A stretch of DNA of 64,000 nucleotides. Origin: Zhihengliuella sp. ISTPL4 (lineage in GTDB: Bacteria; Actinomycetota; Actinomycetes; Actinomycetales; Microbacteriaceae). The notes under the pieces were generated by a model. The model did not search any database. It was not told the DNA's origin and was given only the letters and a program-made list of their open reading frames with translations. Of this stretch, positions 35,756 through 41,702 are shown piece by piece. Numbering within the stretch: the stretch's first letter is position 1; the number at the start of each line of letters is the position of its first letter. The translations under genes and the position numbers were made by a program. Location: assembly GCF_002848265.1 (NCBI RefSeq), contig NZ_CP025422.1, forward strand, positions 3,440,727 to 3,504,726, in the 5' to 3' direction.

Positions 35756-36706
35756 ATGTCGAGCGACGAAACGCCGAACGTCCCCGCCCCTCGCAATTCG
35801 CGCGAGGCCGTGCGGGAGAAGGCACAGAAGGTGCACGCCCAGCAGTCGCGGGCGCGTCTCATGCGACGGATCATCATCGGCGCGGTCGCGATCATCGCGG
35901 TCGGCGCGATCGGGACCGCCGTGACGCTCGCCGTGACCTCGCAGACCTCCAAGCCCCAGCTCAGCCCGAGTGGCATGGAGGCCGATGGTGTCGTGGTGAC
36001 GGACGTCGCGTCCGCCGCGATCGCCGGCTCGGCCTCGGCCACGCCCGATCCCGAGCCCAGCGAGGCCGCCACCACGGAGACGCCGTCTCCCGAGCCCTCC
36101 GCGGCCGGCGCCGTCGAGGTGCACGTGTACGTCGACTACCTCTCGCCGGACGCGGGCAAGTTCGAGCGTGCCAACGCCCGTCTGCTCTCACAGTGGATCG
36201 AGGACGGCGCCGCCACCGTCAGCTACCACCCGGTCGCGCTGCTGACCGCCAGCTCCAACGGCACGAAGTACTCGCTGCGCTCCGCCGCCGCGGCCGCCTG
36301 CGTTGCGACGCACTCGCCGGACCAGTTCTACGCGTTCAACCACGATCTGCTCGACGACCAGCCCGAGGTGGGCAGCGACGGGATGTCGGATGAGGAGCTC
36401 GCCAACCTCGCGGGCGCCGTCGGCGTGGACAACGTCAAGACCGTGCGCTCCTGCATCCAGGACGGCGACTATGTCAGCTGGGCGAAGGAAGCGACCACCA
36501 GGGCACTCGAGGGGCCGCTCCCCGGCTCCGACGACCTCGTCCTCACCGCCGCCCCGATGATCGTCGTGAACGGCGAGGCGTACGTCGGCGCGCTGGACGA
36601 CCCGCAGGAGCTGTCGACGTTCGTCATGTCCGTCGCGAGCGAGGCGTACTACGAGTCGGCGACCCCGACGCCGAGCCCGACCGCCACCTCGGCGCCGGCC
36701 GAGTAG
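35756..36706 (+). CDS. Membrane-anchored DsbA/thioredoxin-fold protein without active-site cysteines
   Basis: 316 aa. A basic N-terminus and one membrane helix (about 38-62) are followed by a Ser/Thr/Pro/Glu tether to about 118 and a DsbA-like domain. In active relatives the block reads DYxCPFCxxFE. Here it is DYLSPDAGKFE, with Ser130 and Ala133 in place of the two cysteines. The rest of the fold, including the cis-proline block TAAPMIVVNGEAYVG, is kept. Redox catalysis is therefore lost and a binding or chaperone role is likely. ATG follows GAGGAACG. Acidic-proline C-terminal tail. Confidence 0.88.
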   Translation: MSSDETPNVPAPRNSREAVREKAQKVHAQQSRARLMRRIIIGAVAIIAVGAIGTAVTLAVTSQTSKPQLSPSGMEADGVVVTDVASAAIAGSASATPDPEPSEAATTETPSPEPSAAGAVEVHVYVDYLSPDAGKFERANARLLSQWIEDGAATVSYHPVALLTASSNGTKYSLRSAAAAACVATHSPDQFYAFNHDLLDDQPEVGSDGMSDEELANLAGAVGVDNVKTVRSCIQDGDYVSWAKEATTRALEGPLPGSDDLVLTAAPMIVVNGEAYVGALDDPQELSTFVMSVASEAYYESATPTPSPTATSAPAE

Positions 36707-36730
36707 TCCGTCACACGCCCCCGCCATCGC

Positions 36731-36736
36731 TAAGCT
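36731..36736 (+). promoter_or_regulatory. Probable native promoter -10 of tRNA-Thr(TGT)
   Basis: TAAGCT 12 bases upstream of the tRNA 5' end at 36749. It is now cut off from the complete tRNA by the inserted element. Confidence 0.45.
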
Positions 36737-36747
36737 GTGATGGCATC

Positions 36748-36787
36748 CGCCGACTTGGCGCAATTGGTAGCGCACCGTACTTGTAAT
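36748..36787 (+). repeat. attL: 40-bp repeat, 5' half of tRNA-Thr
   Basis: Identical to 40000-40039. It contains the tRNA acceptor 5' strand, D arm, and anticodon arm through the loop, then diverges into element DNA. As a tRNA it is incomplete and nonfunctional. Confidence 0.88.
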
Positions 36788-36891
36788 TCAGATCGGGCGA
36801 ATCTCAGGGGTTTGCGCGGGGTATCGCGAGGTGGACGTAGTCGAGGATCGTCTACTCACTGGGTTGCTGAGGGTATCGCTCGACCGCGCGT

Positions 36892-36903
36892 AATGTGCGG
36901 GGT
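36892..36903 (+). repeat. Arm-type repeat, left end
   Basis: AATGTGCGGGGT, followed by ATATGCGGGG. The same 12-mer occurs at 39924-39935, followed by TTGTGCGGG. Related copies of GCGGGGT-ATCGCGAGG lie at about 36815-36831 and 36909-36925. Confidence 0.55.
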
Positions 36904-36947
36904 ATATGCGGGGTTTATCGCGAGGCTCTGCGAACCGTTTGGGGAGG

Positions 36948-37799
36948 TCACTGCCCGAAGGTCTGCGATGCGAGTTCTCCCTCGTACACGGAGCGGTTAC
37001 CTGCCGGCCACGCTCCGAGGTGGAAGTAGCGAGTCCAAAGAGCCCAGATGAGTTGCCACGACTCGGACTCCGGATCCACCGTGGTGACGGGCAGCCCGAG
37101 AGAGCGGGCCGCGTCGGGGCCCACTGTCGCCCCGTGCATCGTGGCATCGTCGACAAGCGGCCCTTTGAGCTTCTCCGCAATCTGGGATCGCGAATCCTCG
37201 TCGAGACCGGAACAGGAGAGGGCCTCTTCGATGAGCGTGTAACTACGAGCCATCGCGGAACGCGCCTGTTCCACCATCAGCATGTTCACGTCGGCGAGTA
37301 GGCCCGAGTAGAGAGGGAACGTATCGGGGGCCTCGGCAACGCGCGCCTCAGCGTCCTTGACCGCCTGCTCGATCTCCTTCGCCCCTACCAGGCGGCCGTT
37401 GATGGGAAACTGCGGGTCGACGGGGCCGAGGTCGCTCGAAGCTGTCATCAGGATCTCGTGGGCCCCAAGGGCCATGATCGTCGCGGCGGACTTCGCCATA
37501 TCCGGGATGATGATGGTCAGGCGGCTGCACCGAGCCTGCATGGCTCGCACGAGACGCACTGCAACCTCACCATCCCCTCCAGGGCTGGATAAGAGCAGGT
37601 GAAGCTCCTGCTCGGGACTAGCCCCGGACAGGAGTTCCTCAAGGAGCGTTACTGAGTGATGGAACACCTGGTCCACCATCACGATCAGGCGTGCGCGGGT
37701 CAGCTCCTGATAACGCCGGATCAGCTGCTGCCGGTCGTAACGATCGGCGTGTTGAGCGGAGAAAAGATGCGTCCGCTGACGGGGCGCCCCGTCGGTCAC
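36948..37799 (-). CDS. Clp-fold SDH-family serine protease
   Basis: 283 aa. The ClpP/crotonase-fold core runs from about residue 60. HLLLSSPGGDGEVAVRLVRAM forms the oxyanion turn, the nucleophile is Ser104 in DMAKSAATIMALGA, Asp128 lies in LGPVDPQF, and His222 in ATMHGATVG, giving the Ser-Asp-His order that names the family. There is no signal peptide or membrane helix, so it should be cytosolic. The GTG start overlaps the stop of the small upstream gene (GTGA). It is the only enzyme cargo of this element; by location an anti-phage or element-maintenance role is plausible, but no direct evidence exists. Confidence 0.85.
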   Translation of the reverse strand: MTDGAPRQRTHLFSAQHADRYDRQQLIRRYQELTRARLIVMVDQVFHHSVTLLEELLSGASPEQELHLLLSSPGGDGEVAVRLVRAMQARCSRLTIIIPDMAKSAATIMALGAHEILMTASSDLGPVDPQFPINGRLVGAKEIEQAVKDAEARVAEAPDTFPLYSGLLADVNMLMVEQARSAMARSYTLIEEALSCSGLDEDSRSQIAEKLKGPLVDDATMHGATVGPDAARSLGLPVTTVDPESESWQLIWALWTRYFHLGAWPAGNRSVYEGELASQTFGQ

Positions 37800-37984
37800 G
37801 AGGCGATCCGGCCAACCTGGCCCCTGAAGCTGGACGGCTTGCCCGCACGGGCGACGCTTGCTGCGTCTCGTGCCCGCCGAGCGACGGCGGCCTTCTCCTG
37901 CCAGCTGTTGTCCGCTCCGCGCGGTGCGGAGATCACGTTCTGCGAGTTGCGCTTCTGCCGAGTCGCCACCGCACTCACCCCCAT
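37796..37984 (-). CDS. 62-aa basic protein coupled to the SDH protease
   Basis: Starts at ATG 37984 and ends inside the protease GTG (GTGA). The composition is basic and polar (VATRQKRNSQNV, then ARRARDAASVARAG), with no membrane segment. The ATG lies 15 bases after CATAAT (minus 38005-38000), so the leader would be very short. A longer in-frame start at 38038 lies upstream of that hexamer and is less likely. No family recognised; tight coupling suggests a partner, substrate or regulator of the protease. Confidence 0.6.
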   Translation of the reverse strand: MGVSAVATRQKRNSQNVISAPRGADNSWQEKAAVARRARDAASVARAGKPSSFRGQVGRIAS

Positions 37985-37999
37985 CGATTCTGATGGGTA

Positions 38000-38005
38000 A
38001 TTATG
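38000..38005 (-). promoter_or_regulatory. -10 element of the protease unit
   Basis: CATAAT on the minus strand, five of six bases of the consensus and unusually AT-rich for this genome. No good -35 at 17 bases. Confidence 0.45.
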
Positions 38006-38139
38006 CGCACAGGGTACGGACATCGCACAAGATGACACGCTCCGCGTGGAGATGCGGCGTGAGCATTCGTCGTGAATGTCGGTGGTTGGTGGGACATTGA
38101 CCGGGCGGGGAACAGGGCCTCGCAGGAAGCAGGGTTGCT

Positions 38140-38397
38140 ATGTCTGGGTTCAGTCAGACGCCCGCGCAGAAGCGGGCGATGGAGAAGCTGCTGCAGGACG
38201 CCGCAGCGAGGGTGCAGACCGACGCGAACGCGAAGGTGCAGAACATCCTCCGGGAGGTTGACGACGCGTTCAGGGGGCGGCCAGTGGGTGAGGTTCGGCG
38301 GGAGCTTGAACGCCGCCTGATCGCGTTGGGCGCCCGGCCCGGTCGCGACCTGCCGGAGTATGCGCAGGCGATCAGCGACGGGACTCTCGAACGATGA
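38140..38397 (+). CDS. 85-aa helical protein of the element
   Basis: Strongly helical and charged (QKRAMEKLLQDAAARVQTDANAKVQ; keeps heptad-like spacing), probably a short coiled coil. AGCAGGG lies upstream of ATG. The stop overlaps the ATG of the next small gene (ATGA). Function unknown; small helical proteins at this place in integrative elements are often regulatory or antitoxin-like, which is only a guess. Confidence 0.65.
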   Translation: MSGFSQTPAQKRAMEKLLQDAAARVQTDANAKVQNILREVDDAFRGRPVGEVRRELERRLIALGARPGRDLPEYAQAISDGTLER

Positions 38398-38513
38398 GCC
38401 GCGAGTTCGAGCTGAAGATCCCCGAGCATGCGACGCCCGAGGAAGAAGAGCGGCTGGTTGACGAAGCAACGGACCGAGAGATCGCCAAGATGCTGGACGG
38501 GCTCGGCCTCTAG
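38394..38513 (+). CDS. 39-aa acidic protein of the element
   Basis: ATG 38394 overlaps the stop of the 85-aa gene; TAG at 38511-38513. The peptide is acidic (PEHATPEEEERLVDEATDRE) and helical. It sits directly before a terminator stem. Read as real because of the overlap, in-frame codon use and terminator position. No family. Confidence 0.55.
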   Translation: MSREFELKIPEHATPEEEERLVDEATDREIAKMLDGLGL

Positions 38514-38533
38514 CGCATCACACCCGTAGAAGG

Positions 38534-38559
38534 CCCTCACCCGGTTGCTCGGGTGAGGG
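38534..38559. terminator. Bidirectional terminator inside the element
   Basis: CCCTCACCCG / CGGGTGAGGG, perfect 10-bp stem with a short loop. It lies between the convergent small genes ending at 38513 and 38569. Confidence 0.75.
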
Positions 38560-38568
38560 TCTCCTGTG

Positions 38569-38826
38569 TCAGCGACCGGGGGATGATGCGAGTTCTTTCC
38601 CGCGGGCTTTGATCGCGGCGGCAGTGTCTTCGTAGTCGGCGAAGCGGTGGACCCGCTGCACGAGGATCGCGCCGCGGGTGAGAGGGGTCGCGAACAGCTC
38701 GCCGCCGATCGTGACTGTGTCAGGAGCATGGCCGTTTCCGTTCTCCGCCCGAATCCGCGTCGCGAGCTCGATCCACTCTTGCCATTCACCTGACTCGGTG
38801 AGCGTGAACGTCTTCGGCTGTGGCAT
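38569..38826 (-). CDS. 85-aa protein divergent from the integrase
   Basis: From ATG 38826. The mixed alpha/beta block TVTIGGELFATPLTRGAILVQ ends in an ARGKELASS tail. It is divergent from the recombinase with 33 bases between starts, a usual place for a directionality factor or repressor, but no helix-turn-helix is evident. Longer in-frame starts would run through the integrase gene. Function unknown. Confidence 0.55.
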   Translation of the reverse strand: MPQPKTFTLTESGEWQEWIELATRIRAENGNGHAPDTVTIGGELFATPLTRGAILVQRVHRFADYEDTAAAIKARGKELASSPGR

Positions 38827-38859
38827 CGCATAGAAGCCGGCACGCTGTGACCGGTCTGA

Positions 38860-39896
38860 GTGGAACAGACGGTTCAGGTCGGCGTCGGCAAGTGGCGTGC
38901 GCGTACACGGTATCGATTCGATGACGGGAAGCTGCGCCAGGTCGAGCGGTTCGCCCGGTCCCGCGCGAAGGCCGAGGCGGCGCTCAAGCAGGCGCTGACG
39001 ACGATCCAGGCCGGCACCGCGACCGAGGTGAAGCGGGAGACGCGGATCCGCGATCTCGGCGAGCGGTTCCTGCTCTCGAAGGCCGATAGGGCGCCTCGGA
39101 CGCTCGAAACGTACAGGCACAGCGTGCGGAAGGTGCTCGTCCCGCGCATCGGTGACCTCACGGTGTCCGAAGCCAGTCCTGAGCGGCTGCAGCGCACCTC
39201 GACGCGATCGCGAAGGAGAACGGCCCCGGGGAGGCGAAGAAGGCCCGCGCGGTGTTGTCCGGCATGCTGGGCCTCGCCGCGCGCTCGGACGCGGTGAAGG
39301 CGAATTCCGTCCGCGAGCTCGCGCCGATCCAGGCGAAGGCCGTGGGTGCTACCGCCGTCCCTCTTGACGTGCTCCCTGTTCTGCTCAGCACGCTCGCCAC
39401 AGACGAAGCCGCGAGCGAATCGGGGCTCTCCGACCTCGTGACGTTCATCGCCGGCACAGGCGTCCGAATCAGCGAGGCGCTCGACCTGAACGTCGGCGAC
39501 GTCGACGGCAATGTGGTGACGATCCGGAAGTCAAAGACGACGGCGGGTGAGCGACGAATCACCGTGCCCGCGGCTGTCGCCGACATGCTCGAGCGGCGAA
39601 CCCGATCAAACTTGAGCGGGTTGCCGCTGTTTCCCACAGTGCTCGGCAAGCGCCGCGATCGCCGGAACACCTCGGGGGAGTGGCAGGCAGCCCGGGAGCG
39701 TCTCGGGCTCGGCGACTACACGTTTCACTCGTTTCGGAAGACGGTGGCGACAGCCCTCGACCAGGCAGGCCTCTCTGCGCGTGACATCGCCGAGTATCTC
39801 GGCCACGCGAACCCGTCGCTCACGATGAACACCTACATGAGCAAGACCGTCGGCGGCCGGAGGGCAGCGGACGCTCTCGATCCGGCGCTCGGATAG
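38860..39896 (+). pseudogene. Tyrosine recombinase (integrase), frameshifted
   Basis: The first frame (38860 to about 39191) gives an arm-binding domain (KWRARTRYRFDDGKLRQVERF) and the start of the core-binding domain. The homologous continuation (AHLDAIAKENGPGEAKKARAV) lies in the -1 frame from 39192 to 39896. One base is missing near CTGCAGCGC at 39189-39194. The catalytic domain in the second frame is complete: Arg in GVRISEALDL, His-x-x-Arg in FHSFRKT, HANPSL, and the nucleophile Tyr in MNTYMSKT. Either a recent inactivating deletion or a sequencing error. No slippery heptamer is present. Confidence 0.88.
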
Positions 39897-39923
39897 ACTC
39901 AGATCCAGCGCTTACCCAGCGCA

Positions 39924-39935
39924 AATGTGCGGGGT
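39924..39935 (+). repeat. Arm-type repeat, right end
   Basis: AATGTGCGGGGT, identical to 36892-36903 and in the same orientation. It lies 65 bases inside the right junction, a normal distance for an integrase arm site. Confidence 0.55.
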
Positions 39936-39999
39936 TTGTGCGGGATCGGGTACCACCGAACTCGCTAACACCCTGCAAGGTCCGCGGAATTTCGCGGTT

Positions 40000-40039
40000 C
40001 GCCGACTTGGCGCAATTGGTAGCGCACCGTACTTGTAAT
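40000..40039 (+). repeat. attR: 40-bp repeat within the complete tRNA-Thr
   Basis: Identical to 36748-36787. Its last base is in the 3' strand of the anticodon stem. Everything after it (ACGGGGG onward) is the chromosomal 3' half. Confidence 0.88.
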
Positions 40040-40076
40040 ACGGGGGTTACGGGTTCGAGTCCCGTAGTCGGCTCCA
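40001..40076 (+). tRNA. tRNA-Thr (anticodon TGT), CCA encoded
   Basis: Acceptor GCCGACT/AGTCGGC, D arm GCGC/GCGC, anticodon loop CTTGTAA with TGT at 40034-40036, T arm ACGGG/CCCGT, then T and genomic CCA. It reads ACA. Its 5' 39 bases and the upstream DNA come from the integrated element, so its promoter is not the original one. Confidence 0.95.
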
Positions 40077-40227
40077 CACGCGAAGGCCTGCATCCCTTGG
40101 AAACACGGGGATTGCGGGCCCTTTGCGTATCCAGGCGAGGAGCGCTGCCCACGTGTGCGCCCTCAGGGCCCAGCTCGCGCTCGCACCACTCGCCGTCGCC
40201 CCTCGGGCCCAGCGCTAGGCTCTGCGC

Positions 40228-40515
40228 ATGAGCGAACCCGCGGACGAGTCCGGCCCGTCGCTGAGTCAGCAGCGGCTCGCACTGCAGCGACGGAAGACAT
40301 GGGCGATCGTGCTCGCCGTGTTCTGGACGGTGAGCGCCGTCTGGTGGCTGAGCTCTGGTCTTCTGACGGACGCACGCGCCCTCGACGTGATGCGGGTGGC
40401 CGTCGGGGCGGTGAGCGTGGTGTTGGCGATCGCGCACGTGCTCACGTTGAGGCGCGCGCTCCGGGACATCCGAGATTTCGAAGCGCGACACGGCGCGGAC
40501 GCGGGCGGCCGATAG
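40228..40515 (+). CDS. Small two-helix membrane protein
   Basis: 95 aa. A polar N-terminus, two membrane helices (about 25-46 and 56-75) and a charged C-terminal tail (RALRDIRDFEARHG). TAGGCT ends six bases before ATG 40228, so it is probably leaderless. No family recognised. Confidence 0.72.
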   Translation: MSEPADESGPSLSQQRLALQRRKTWAIVLAVFWTVSAVWWLSSGLLTDARALDVMRVAVGAVSVVLAIAHVLTLRRALRDIRDFEARHGADAGGR

Positions 40516-40658
40516 CTGGCCGGTGCTCATCGCACACCCCCAGCAGCAAGCAGTGCGGCGTCGGCGGCACCTCGGGGTTCCAGAGCAGGCCCGTCGTTGG
40601 CTCGGGCTCGCGCCCCGCATATCACGTGTCACGTCGGAGGGTGTTATGTTACTGGGGT

Positions 40659-40691
40659 GCAGGTGGCCGGCACCCCGCCCCGGCCACCTGC
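40659..40691 (+). terminator. 12-bp hairpin upstream of the aldo/keto reductase
   Basis: GCAGGTGGCCGG / CCGGCCACCTGC, perfect stem with a 9-base loop. It follows a possible -10 (TATGTT at about 40644) and lies 58 bases before the reductase ATG. It may end upstream transcription or act in the leader. The rest of the 233-base gap shows nothing recognisable. Confidence 0.5.
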
Positions 40692-40748
40692 GCATCTTTC
40701 CGTTCCGTCGCGGGAATTCTCGCGCCGCTCGCGGTGGTTGTCCCGAAC

Positions 40749-41702
40749 ATGACCCGCATCGGCTCCAGTGACCTCGACGTCTTCCCCCTCGCCCTCGGCG
40801 GCAACGTGTTCGGCTGGACCGCCGACCGTGACGCCTCCTTCGCCGTCCTCGACGCTTTCCTCGACGGGGGCGGTGACTTCATCGACACGGCGGATTCCTA
40901 CAGCTCATGGGCTCCCGGCAACGAGGGCGGCGAGAGCGAGACGATCATCGGAACGTGGCTCGCGGCGCGGAAGCCCCAGGGCGTGGTCGTGGCGACCAAG
41001 GTCAGCCAGCACCCCGCCTTCCGCGGTCTCTCGGCCGGCAACGTCCGCCGGGCGGCGGAGGCGTCGCTTGCCCGCCTCGGCGTGGACGAGATCGACCTCT
41101 ACTACGCGCACTTCGACGACGAGTCCGTGCCGCTGGAGGAGACCGTGGCGGCGTTCGGCGCCCTCGTCACGGACGGTCTCGTGCGCCACGTGGCGGTGTC
41201 GAACTACACGGCCGACCGCATCCGCGAGTGGATCGACATCGCGGACCGCCTCGGCGTCGCGCGTCCCGTCGCCATCCAGCCGCACTACAACCTCGTGCAC
41301 CGCAACGACGTCGAGGACACCATCATCCCCGTCGCCGAGGAGTTCGGGTTGAGCCTCGTGCCGTACTACGCGCTGGCCAGCGGCTTCCTGACGGGGAAGT
41401 ACCGCTCGACGGACGCCGGGGGGGCGGGCTCGCCGCGGGCCGCCGGCGCCGCGAAGTACGCGACCGACGCGGGACTGCGGATCATCGACGAGCTGGAGGA
41501 GATCGGCGGCGCGCACGGCGCCTCGGTCGCCGCGACGGCTCTGGCCTGGCTGCGCGCGCAGCCGACCGTGGTCGCGCCCATCGCGAGCGCCCGGACGGTG
41601 GAGCAGGTGCCGGATCTGCTCGCCGGAGCGCGGCTCGAGTTGTCGTCCGCGGAGGTCGAGCGCCTGAACCGCGTCTCCGCCTGGACGCCGCCGCAGGGCT
41701 GA
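40749..41702 (+). CDS. Aldo/keto reductase
   Basis: 317 aa TIM barrel. FIDTADSYSSW holds the conserved Asp and Tyr, VVVATKV the lysine, and YYAHFDD stands where many relatives have the catalytic histidine. C-terminal NADPH-binding block VVAPIASARTVEQVPDLL. The substrate is unknown; closest in style to YdjG/Tas-like general reductases. ATG 40749 gives the usual N-terminus (MTRIGSSDLDVFPLALGG). Confidence 0.92.
   Translation: MTRIGSSDLDVFPLALGGNVFGWTADRDASFAVLDAFLDGGGDFIDTADSYSSWAPGNEGGESETIIGTWLAARKPQGVVVATKVSQHPAFRGLSAGNVRRAAEASLARLGVDEIDLYYAHFDDESVPLEETVAAFGALVTDGLVRHVAVSNYTADRIREWIDIADRLGVARPVAIQPHYNLVHRNDVEDTIIPVAEEFGLSLVPYYALASGFLTGKYRSTDAGGAGSPRAAGAAKYATDAGLRIIDELEEIGGAHGASVAATALAWLRAQPTVVAPIASARTVEQVPDLLAGARLELSSAEVERLNRVSAWTPPQG

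Follow-up and report, generated by a model that had tools for sequence, protein, structure and literature searches.

An integrative element in tRNA-Thr(TGT) that appears to supply the 5' half of the tRNA and a replacement promoter

How does a tRNA gene stay in use once an integrated element has cut it off from its own promoter? We address this question for the threonine tRNA with anticodon TGT of Zhihengliuella sp. ISTPL4, using a stretch of 64,000 nt from contig NZ_CP025422.1 (positions 3,440,727 to 3,504,726), in the following called the window. A first-pass annotation, made from the letters alone, had proposed that a small integrative element at 36748-40039 replaces the 5' half of this tRNA and not, as is the rule, the 3' half. 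In our reading, a phage-related element has inserted into the anticodon loop of tRNA-Thr(TGT), supplies the 5' half together with a replacement promoter, and probably keeps the host locked to it; we put the probability of this reading at about 0.83. The features are listed in Table 1; compared genomes and loci are given by our own handles (G and L numbers).

The interval is bounded by a perfect direct repeat, i.e., 36748-36787 equals 40000-40039 at 40/40 positions, with the copies 3252 bp apart. It is the longest direct repeat within 36000-41000 (the runner-up has 39 nt at 72%) and consists, as had been claimed, of tRNA-Thr(TGT) positions 1-39 plus one base before. The intact tRNA, the one of its kind in the window, is placed at 40001-40076 by ARAGORN. 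The host genome (one contig, 3,529,629 bp) holds 46 tRNA matches (Rfam), among which ARAGORN types one Thr-TGT, one Thr-CGT and one Thr-GGT; the count of TGT threonine tRNAs, proposed earlier as a check, is thus one. In the same set, tRNA-Cys(GCA) is found twice and tRNA-Met(CAT) three times, and each other anticodon found is single.

For the empty site, we compared seven congeners picked from genomes sharing the 5' half. Left-flank homology ends exactly at 36787 in all seven (79-85% over 634-677 nt), and the best right-flank alignment begins exactly at 40040 in four, which are the junctions that the first-pass annotation had predicted. For G021 and G001, the best right-flank alignment is the downstream region 40736-41420, and for G002 it covers just 73 nt from 40216. 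The empty-site congeners carry tRNA-Thr(TGT) whole, with a -10-like TAAGCT closely upstream (TATGAT in G033). Given that flank homology ends at 36787 and that the tRNA is whole in congeners, the 3252-bp interval is an insertion; its GC content is 65.5% compared to 70-72% in the flanks. The native TAAGCT is still present at 36731-36736 and is kept in several empty sites, i.e., the old promoter faces a dead tRNA half, as had been noted. In several congeners (L018, L019 and others), the native -10 box lies inside an inverted repeat, e.g., GGCGCC-ggtagactg-GGCGCC.

The window element belongs to a family. We searched 366 genomes of the window's genus with the C-terminus of the window integrase (E<=1e-20) and obtained matches in 25, including the window's own. 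A tRNA-Thr(TGT) follows downstream on the same strand in 14/25 loci; the remaining ones show tRNA-Met (3/25) or tRNA-Phe (6/25) on the opposite strand, or had no tRNA found (2/25). A search pattern of tandem TGCGGGG repeats with the tRNA 5' half behind them returned 15/366 genomes. It misses G237, in which the first repeat differs, and adds G025 and G257, which are without an integrase match. We further searched 14 genomes (12 with integrase plus G025 and G257) for half-tRNA copies with at most two mismatches. Two same-orientation copies on one contig are seen in 11/14, two on separate contigs in G270, and one each in G025 and G257. Copies are spaced by 2.65 kb in G141, 3.25 in the window, 3.36 in G262, 7.96 in G119, 9.0 in G316, 9.1 in G327, 9.2 in G196, 9.6 in G295, 12.1 in G293, 15.9 in G121, 16.3 in G005, 16.4 in G130 and 36.2 in G237. 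Since the G237 interval holds portal, terminase and tail genes and the G005 element a tail tape measure gene, the family moves at least partly with temperate phages. Compared to phage and plasmid collections, the G005 integrase matches 966 phage and 80 plasmid records, all below 60% identity; a genome scan and a viral contig scan with this integrase alone gave two loci each. The 36-kb interval of G237 also contains a second integrase (L213 11278-12501, minus strand) and may hold two elements in tandem.

The boundaries of the repeat are shared as well. In 14/14 elements, the block of identity extends to tRNA position 38-41, no more than 3 nt from the 3' edge of the anticodon loop, which argues for the element as the source of the 5' half. 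The block begins at about tRNA position 1 in most, with five to seven extra bases matching in G130 and G196, and in G141 the left copy has a point change in the D-loop that is not in the right copy. The first-pass annotation had assigned both the 5' half and all upstream DNA to the element: the empty site confirms this for the upstream DNA, while for the 5' half it is deduced from the block end. With an exchange at the 5' end of the block, only the upstream DNA would be foreign, and the promoter would still be replaced.

What, then, stands in for the lost promoter? We compared the right ends of 16 loci, i.e., of 14 elements and the two remnants G025 and G257. All 16 carry TAGACT (TAGAAT in G237) 87-120 nt upstream of the tRNA, compared to 0.245 of 16 right ends expected from dinucleotide shuffles, and in 13/16 it is the sole TANNNT within 140 nt. 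In contrast, none of 21 related right ends with opposite tRNA orientation (9 from the genus, 12 from the family) shows TAGACT or TAGAAT within 140 nt. Most likely, judged from the sequence, the new promoter has its -10 box at 39894-39899 and starts near 39906. This is in accordance with the earlier argument that the element must supply a promoter, whose start was to be sought within 39897-40000.

The hexamer lies within the last integrase codons (A-L-D-S type) in 9/14 elements. Eight of them (G237, G295, G119, G121, G196, G262, G130, G327) have the leucine codon CTA there, and G293 uses GTA. As background, CTA accounts for 2/1389 leucine codons in 39 open reading frames (ORFs) of the window, which were picked for a GC3 above 0.85, a choice that itself lowers CTA. 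Inside the six hexamer-bearing integrases counted, 9/195 leucine codons are CTA, six of these nine at the place of the hexamer. In the window, G005, G316 and G141, that codon is CTC or CTT and the right end holds TAGACT at another place. In the window and G316, the hexamer runs over the integrase stop codon; in G141, it stands apart from the integrase end; in G270, the integrase ends farther off with TAGACT in between, and in G005 a reverse-oriented Abi-like gene separates the two. More weight falls on these five elements, in which the hexamer is not part of coding codons, whereby the window and G005 share one placement. The Abi-like gene (L034 16462-17148, minus strand, between integrase and tRNA) has a PADLOC match to PD-T4-5 (5.2e-11) and one to Pfam PF07751 below cut-off. 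In the 2.65-kb element of G141 (L051), the integrase frame ends with CTC and a separate integrase-tail-like stretch with TAGACT follows about 0.8 kb on, such that the element is possibly composite.

The remnants G025 and G257 retain TAGACT, repeats, hairpin and tRNA, and neither an integrase match nor the left half was found. The module holds the sole -10-like site of its type seen before their one matching tRNA, and they come nearest to an experiment, i.e., a tRNA that seems to live on the TAGACT module. We read these two alone as remnants, as they also retain the arm repeats. We considered serial replacement for G295 (L111) and G130 (L090), where DNA before the left half resembles integrase tails with TAGACT (GGACGCTCTAGACTC...), and do not claim it, since similar surroundings are seen at host tRNA promoters (TAGACTCGATGG, TAGACTCGTGTGG).

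Some observations weigh against a promoter at this place, whose role we infer from the comparison. No -35 hexamer was found, and a sigma-70 scan predicts 0 promoters in 36600-40150; the native tRNA-Thr promoters of congeners are likewise without an obvious -35. We examined 30 of the 46 host tRNAs: 6/30 carry TAGACT upstream, at -14 to -36, and 24/30 are without it within 70 nt. Furthermore, the 16 hexamers are mostly related by descent and not 16 independent events. Finally, read-through is possible where integrase and tRNA adjoin, the window included. That is, the tRNA might be transcribed from the integrase promoter and TAGACT be a by-product of conserved integrase codons, given that the integrase points the same way as the tRNA in 14 loci and lies next to it in most. 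We consider this unlikely. TAGACT persists outside integrase codons in the five elements named above, and it persists in G025 and G257, where no integrase match exists. In G005, the reverse-oriented gene and a strong hairpin (z -2.47, although the scan does not call a terminator) lie between integrase and TAGACT. Moreover, integrases with the same C-terminal motif but opposite tRNA orientation have other codons at this place, i.e., CTC in G283 and G192 and ATC in G344.

Two further explanations concern the repeat itself. If strands were exchanged near its 5' end, the intact tRNA would be host DNA throughout and the upstream promoter alone replaced. In line with this, the right copy equals the left copy in the host-specific sequence type in 14/14 elements, including the variant types of G196, G327, G262 and G316. 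Yet in 14/14 elements identity persists roughly as far as the anticodon loop edge and then ends, for which a functionless left copy gives no reason, and the anticodon loop is one known crossover sub-site in tRNA genes according to the available text of PMC4383910; we thus rate an exchange at the 5' end as improbable, more so than read-through. A partial tRNA duplication or the chance landing of a transposon would also leave a perfect repeat, if that is taken by itself. With an integrase at the junction, inserts of different size at the same tRNA in relatives, the same block boundaries and empty sites in congeners, we give such an origin hardly any weight. In the genomes examined, neither the segment without the duplicated half, which had been named as a counter-indication, nor evidence of a tRNA duplication was seen; G025 and G257 do have a right end without the duplicated half, yet also lack an integrase match, which is why they are taken as remnants.

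Site-specific insertion with promoter replacement would accordingly proceed as follows. Through tyrosine recombination, a temperate-phage-related element would enter tRNA-Thr(TGT) at the anticodon loop, oriented such that it supplies the 5' half, and would thereby cut the tRNA off from its own promoter. Transcription from the element promoter would then yield the sole TGT threonine tRNA of the host as a precursor carrying some 95 nt of leader. As the window element is small and has a broken integrase, the host is probably locked in to this promoter. The place of the crossover and the irreversibility of this lock are, in our view, the probable ones given the block ends and the integrase damage.

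The proposed leader has conserved parts of its own. With a transcription start some 6 nt past TAGACT, the precursor leader would span 75-108 nt across the family. Directly upstream of the tRNA, a 6-bp hairpin is paired in 95.8% of cells, compared to 37-58% for slid versions. Three of its six pairs are altered on both sides, a value reached by 23/500 shuffles, and 12 cells show both-side changes versus 4.5 in shuffles, with 0/500 as high. This covariation supports the hairpin without proving it, because related rows inflate the counts. Hairpins are also found just upstream of several of the 30 host tRNAs (e.g., L128, L136, L137, L146, L152, L154), so the element resembles the host's leader design. 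The tandem TGCGGGG repeats begin 71-73 nt upstream of the tRNA in 14/16 right ends and 62-63 nt in 2/16, and are spaced by about one helical turn, as expected for integrase arm sites, which we infer them to be. An equal distance from arm to anticodon across orientations was considered as well: about 107 nt in the 5' types stands against 104-116 and 159-170 nt in seven 3'-oriented ones, which is not clean enough, and a value of 230 nt for G283 stems from a second, farther match.

To place the family among its relatives, we used a family-wide sample of 398 genomes from 85 genera (E<=1e-60), in which the integrase matches 16/398 genomes and 11/85 genera. Among 18 loci besides the window's site, 12 have a downstream tRNA in reverse orientation with its 3' end facing the integrase (1.3 kb away in L195), five are without tRNA, and at L207 a tRNA-Lys on the same strand follows after about 1 kb. 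In G493 (L198), a 49% identical integrase adjoins tRNA-Thr(TGT) in reverse orientation, i.e., the other half of the same tRNA. Overall, homologous integrases (44-54% in other genera) face the 3' end of tRNA-Met, -Phe, -Lys, -Arg and -Thr(TGT) in genus and family. As in the window family, several of these loci have similar tandem TGCGGGGT-type repeats before the tRNA; unlike it, the tRNA is oppositely oriented, the element would supply the 3' half, and TAGACT/TAGAAT is absent (0/21). A far 3' tRNA fragment next to the integrase was found in G283 and G265 only, of nine 3'-oriented genomes searched. G219 shows two tRNA-Met matches 9.5 kb apart.

We computed a midpoint-rooted tree of 36 integrases (omitting L063, L064, L067, L068, L206, L210 and L211), labelled 3' or 5' by tRNA orientation with 5 rows unlabelled. 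The 5'-users fall into one genus clade (100/99), which also contains three 3'-oriented rows (Met), with further 3'-oriented rows outside. The minimum is two orientation changes; one change is seen in 8% of bootstrap trees, and the starred branches force at least one. The likely order is thus 3' use, followed by 5' use with promoter gain, and perhaps then a change back. The tree thereby locates, inside a single integrase family, the change from one tRNA half to the other.

Taking these observations together, we tentatively consider a wider reading, for which we see somewhat less than even chances. A temperate family would encode the promoter of an essential host tRNA in its last integrase codons, such that one DNA serves as protein code and promoter and selection keeps the rare codon. 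With arm sites in the leader, integrase binding could throttle the tRNA. The host would depend on the right end, as clean excision restores the old promoter and decay cannot remove the module, and the arrangement would have arisen when a 3'-half integrase lineage switched tRNA orientation. Elements in tRNA genes usually spare the host promoter; this family removes that of a tRNA which is single-copy in the window genome and must repay it. Integrase codons, a rare codon, varied hexamer placements and integrase-less remnants form a natural series that would trace this repayment. As 5' use needs a promoter and 3' use does not, the rarity of 5' use becomes directly testable. The cell probably cannot easily lose a viral remnant that appears to supply the front half of a tRNA and its promoter.

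Replacement of a 5' half is a known, uncommon kind of integration; what is new is how the promoter is arranged and how this evolved. Islander (Hudson, Lau and Williams 2014; PMC4383910) counts, in the text available, 159 islands with 5' fragments and 3760 with 3' fragments of 3919, which agrees with the statement that 3' replacement is the rule; for a Sinorhizobium survey (PMC11476347) the value in the accessible portion is 9/88. As described in that part of the Islander paper, the 5'-fragment islands resemble the window: a tyrosine integrase, an intact tRNA and a displaced 5' fragment in the same orientation, with anticodon-centred sites common. The window likewise shows a same-orientation tRNA and upstream 5' fragment on the same replicon, 3252 bp apart (2-200 kb in Islander), a PF00589 integrase in between (its gene broken), and no element at this site in relatives. 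The available part of the paper is silent on tRNA expression, while the window family has a conserved replacement module, and the window's integrase is broken. The pTN3/TKV4 integrases of Thermococcales (PMC5495485, from the text available) are similar in that the attachment site attB is the 5' half of a tRNA, with a 41-bp block, and that the tRNA is separated from its original promoter. They differ in two respects: their integrase gene is split upon integration, and its promoter is said to drive the tRNA. In the window family, the attachment site lies outside the integrase gene (the frames end before the right attachment site in the relatives read), and the -10-like box is at or near the integrase 3' end. 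In the tRNA-dependent lysogeny of mycobacteriophage Fionnbharth (PMC10865867, accessible part), a prophage takes over the supply of one host tRNA as in the window; there, the phage brings a complete tRNA gene plus a promoter for it and nothing is rebuilt, whereas here the tRNA is rebuilt and the window element has no other tRNA. Our literature searches, which cover open-licence papers, turned up no account of an integrase gene whose 3' end contains a tRNA promoter; PMC9030533 and PMC2951348, as far as consulted, gave nothing relevant to it.

Table 1. Positions of the element's features in the window, with the evidence for each.
Feature	Position	Strand	Evidence
Native -10-like hexamer TAAGCT, now facing the displaced 5' half alone	36731..36736	+	same hexamer in several empty-site congeners
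Left copy of the tRNA-Thr(TGT) 5' half (displaced dead half, left junction)	36748..36787	+	direct repeat D1, 40/40
Left arm: CAGGGGTTTGCGCGGGGTATC-type sites and tandem TGCGGGGT repeats, probable integrase arm-binding sites	36803..36912	+	similar left arms in related elements
Cargo: ClpP-like SDH-type serine proteinase, 283 aa	36948..37799	-	Pfam PF01972 1.3e-12; PHROG 11747 5.5e-36
Small ORF, 85 aa	38140..38397	+	no match in Pfam, PHROG, PADLOC
Tyrosine integrase gene, broken; stop codon TAG at 39894-39896	38860..39896	+	Pfam PF00589 2.6e-22 on C-terminal ORF
Proposed -10 box TAGACT of the rebuilt tRNA-Thr(TGT), shared in part with the integrase stop codon	39894..39899	+	16/16 right ends vs 0/21 controls
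Tandem TGCGGGG repeats, probable integrase arm-binding sites within the predicted tRNA leader	39928..39946	+	matches in 16 right ends
Hairpin CCGCGG-AATT-TCGCGG directly before the tRNA; pairs change in a compensatory way among family members	39982..39997	+	covariation count
Right repeat copy, 5' half of the regenerated tRNA, probably element-derived	40000..40039	+	D1; block end in relatives
Intact tRNA-Thr(TGT), sole one found in the genome	40001..40076	+	ARAGORN

The window element itself is a decayed 3.25-kb relic. In a frame-by-frame comparison, residues 16-140 of the intact G005 integrase are matched by one frame of its integrase and residues 126-358 by a second one; the frame switches at about 39198-39243 and some 15 N-terminal residues are missing. 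Relatives hold undamaged copies of the gene. Repeat D8 pairs 36892-36912 in the left arm with 39924-39944 on the right, which fits probable arm-type sites at both ends. No phage structural genes were identified in the element (Pfam, PHROG), i.e., it does not by itself look like a temperate-phage prophage, and PADLOC reports nothing for five window ORFs. The host genome carries a second related integrase (G000:C1:2034270-2035400; L069, L209) with an open frame and 51% identity to the G005 integrase. It falls into the tRNA-Phe clade of the tree, and no tRNA was detected in its flanks of about 1.5 kb. The proteinase is the sole cargo gene of the window element with a family match; it is without a PADLOC match, and the 7 phage records that match it all stay below 60% identity, with 30% in Gordonia phage BeeGee.

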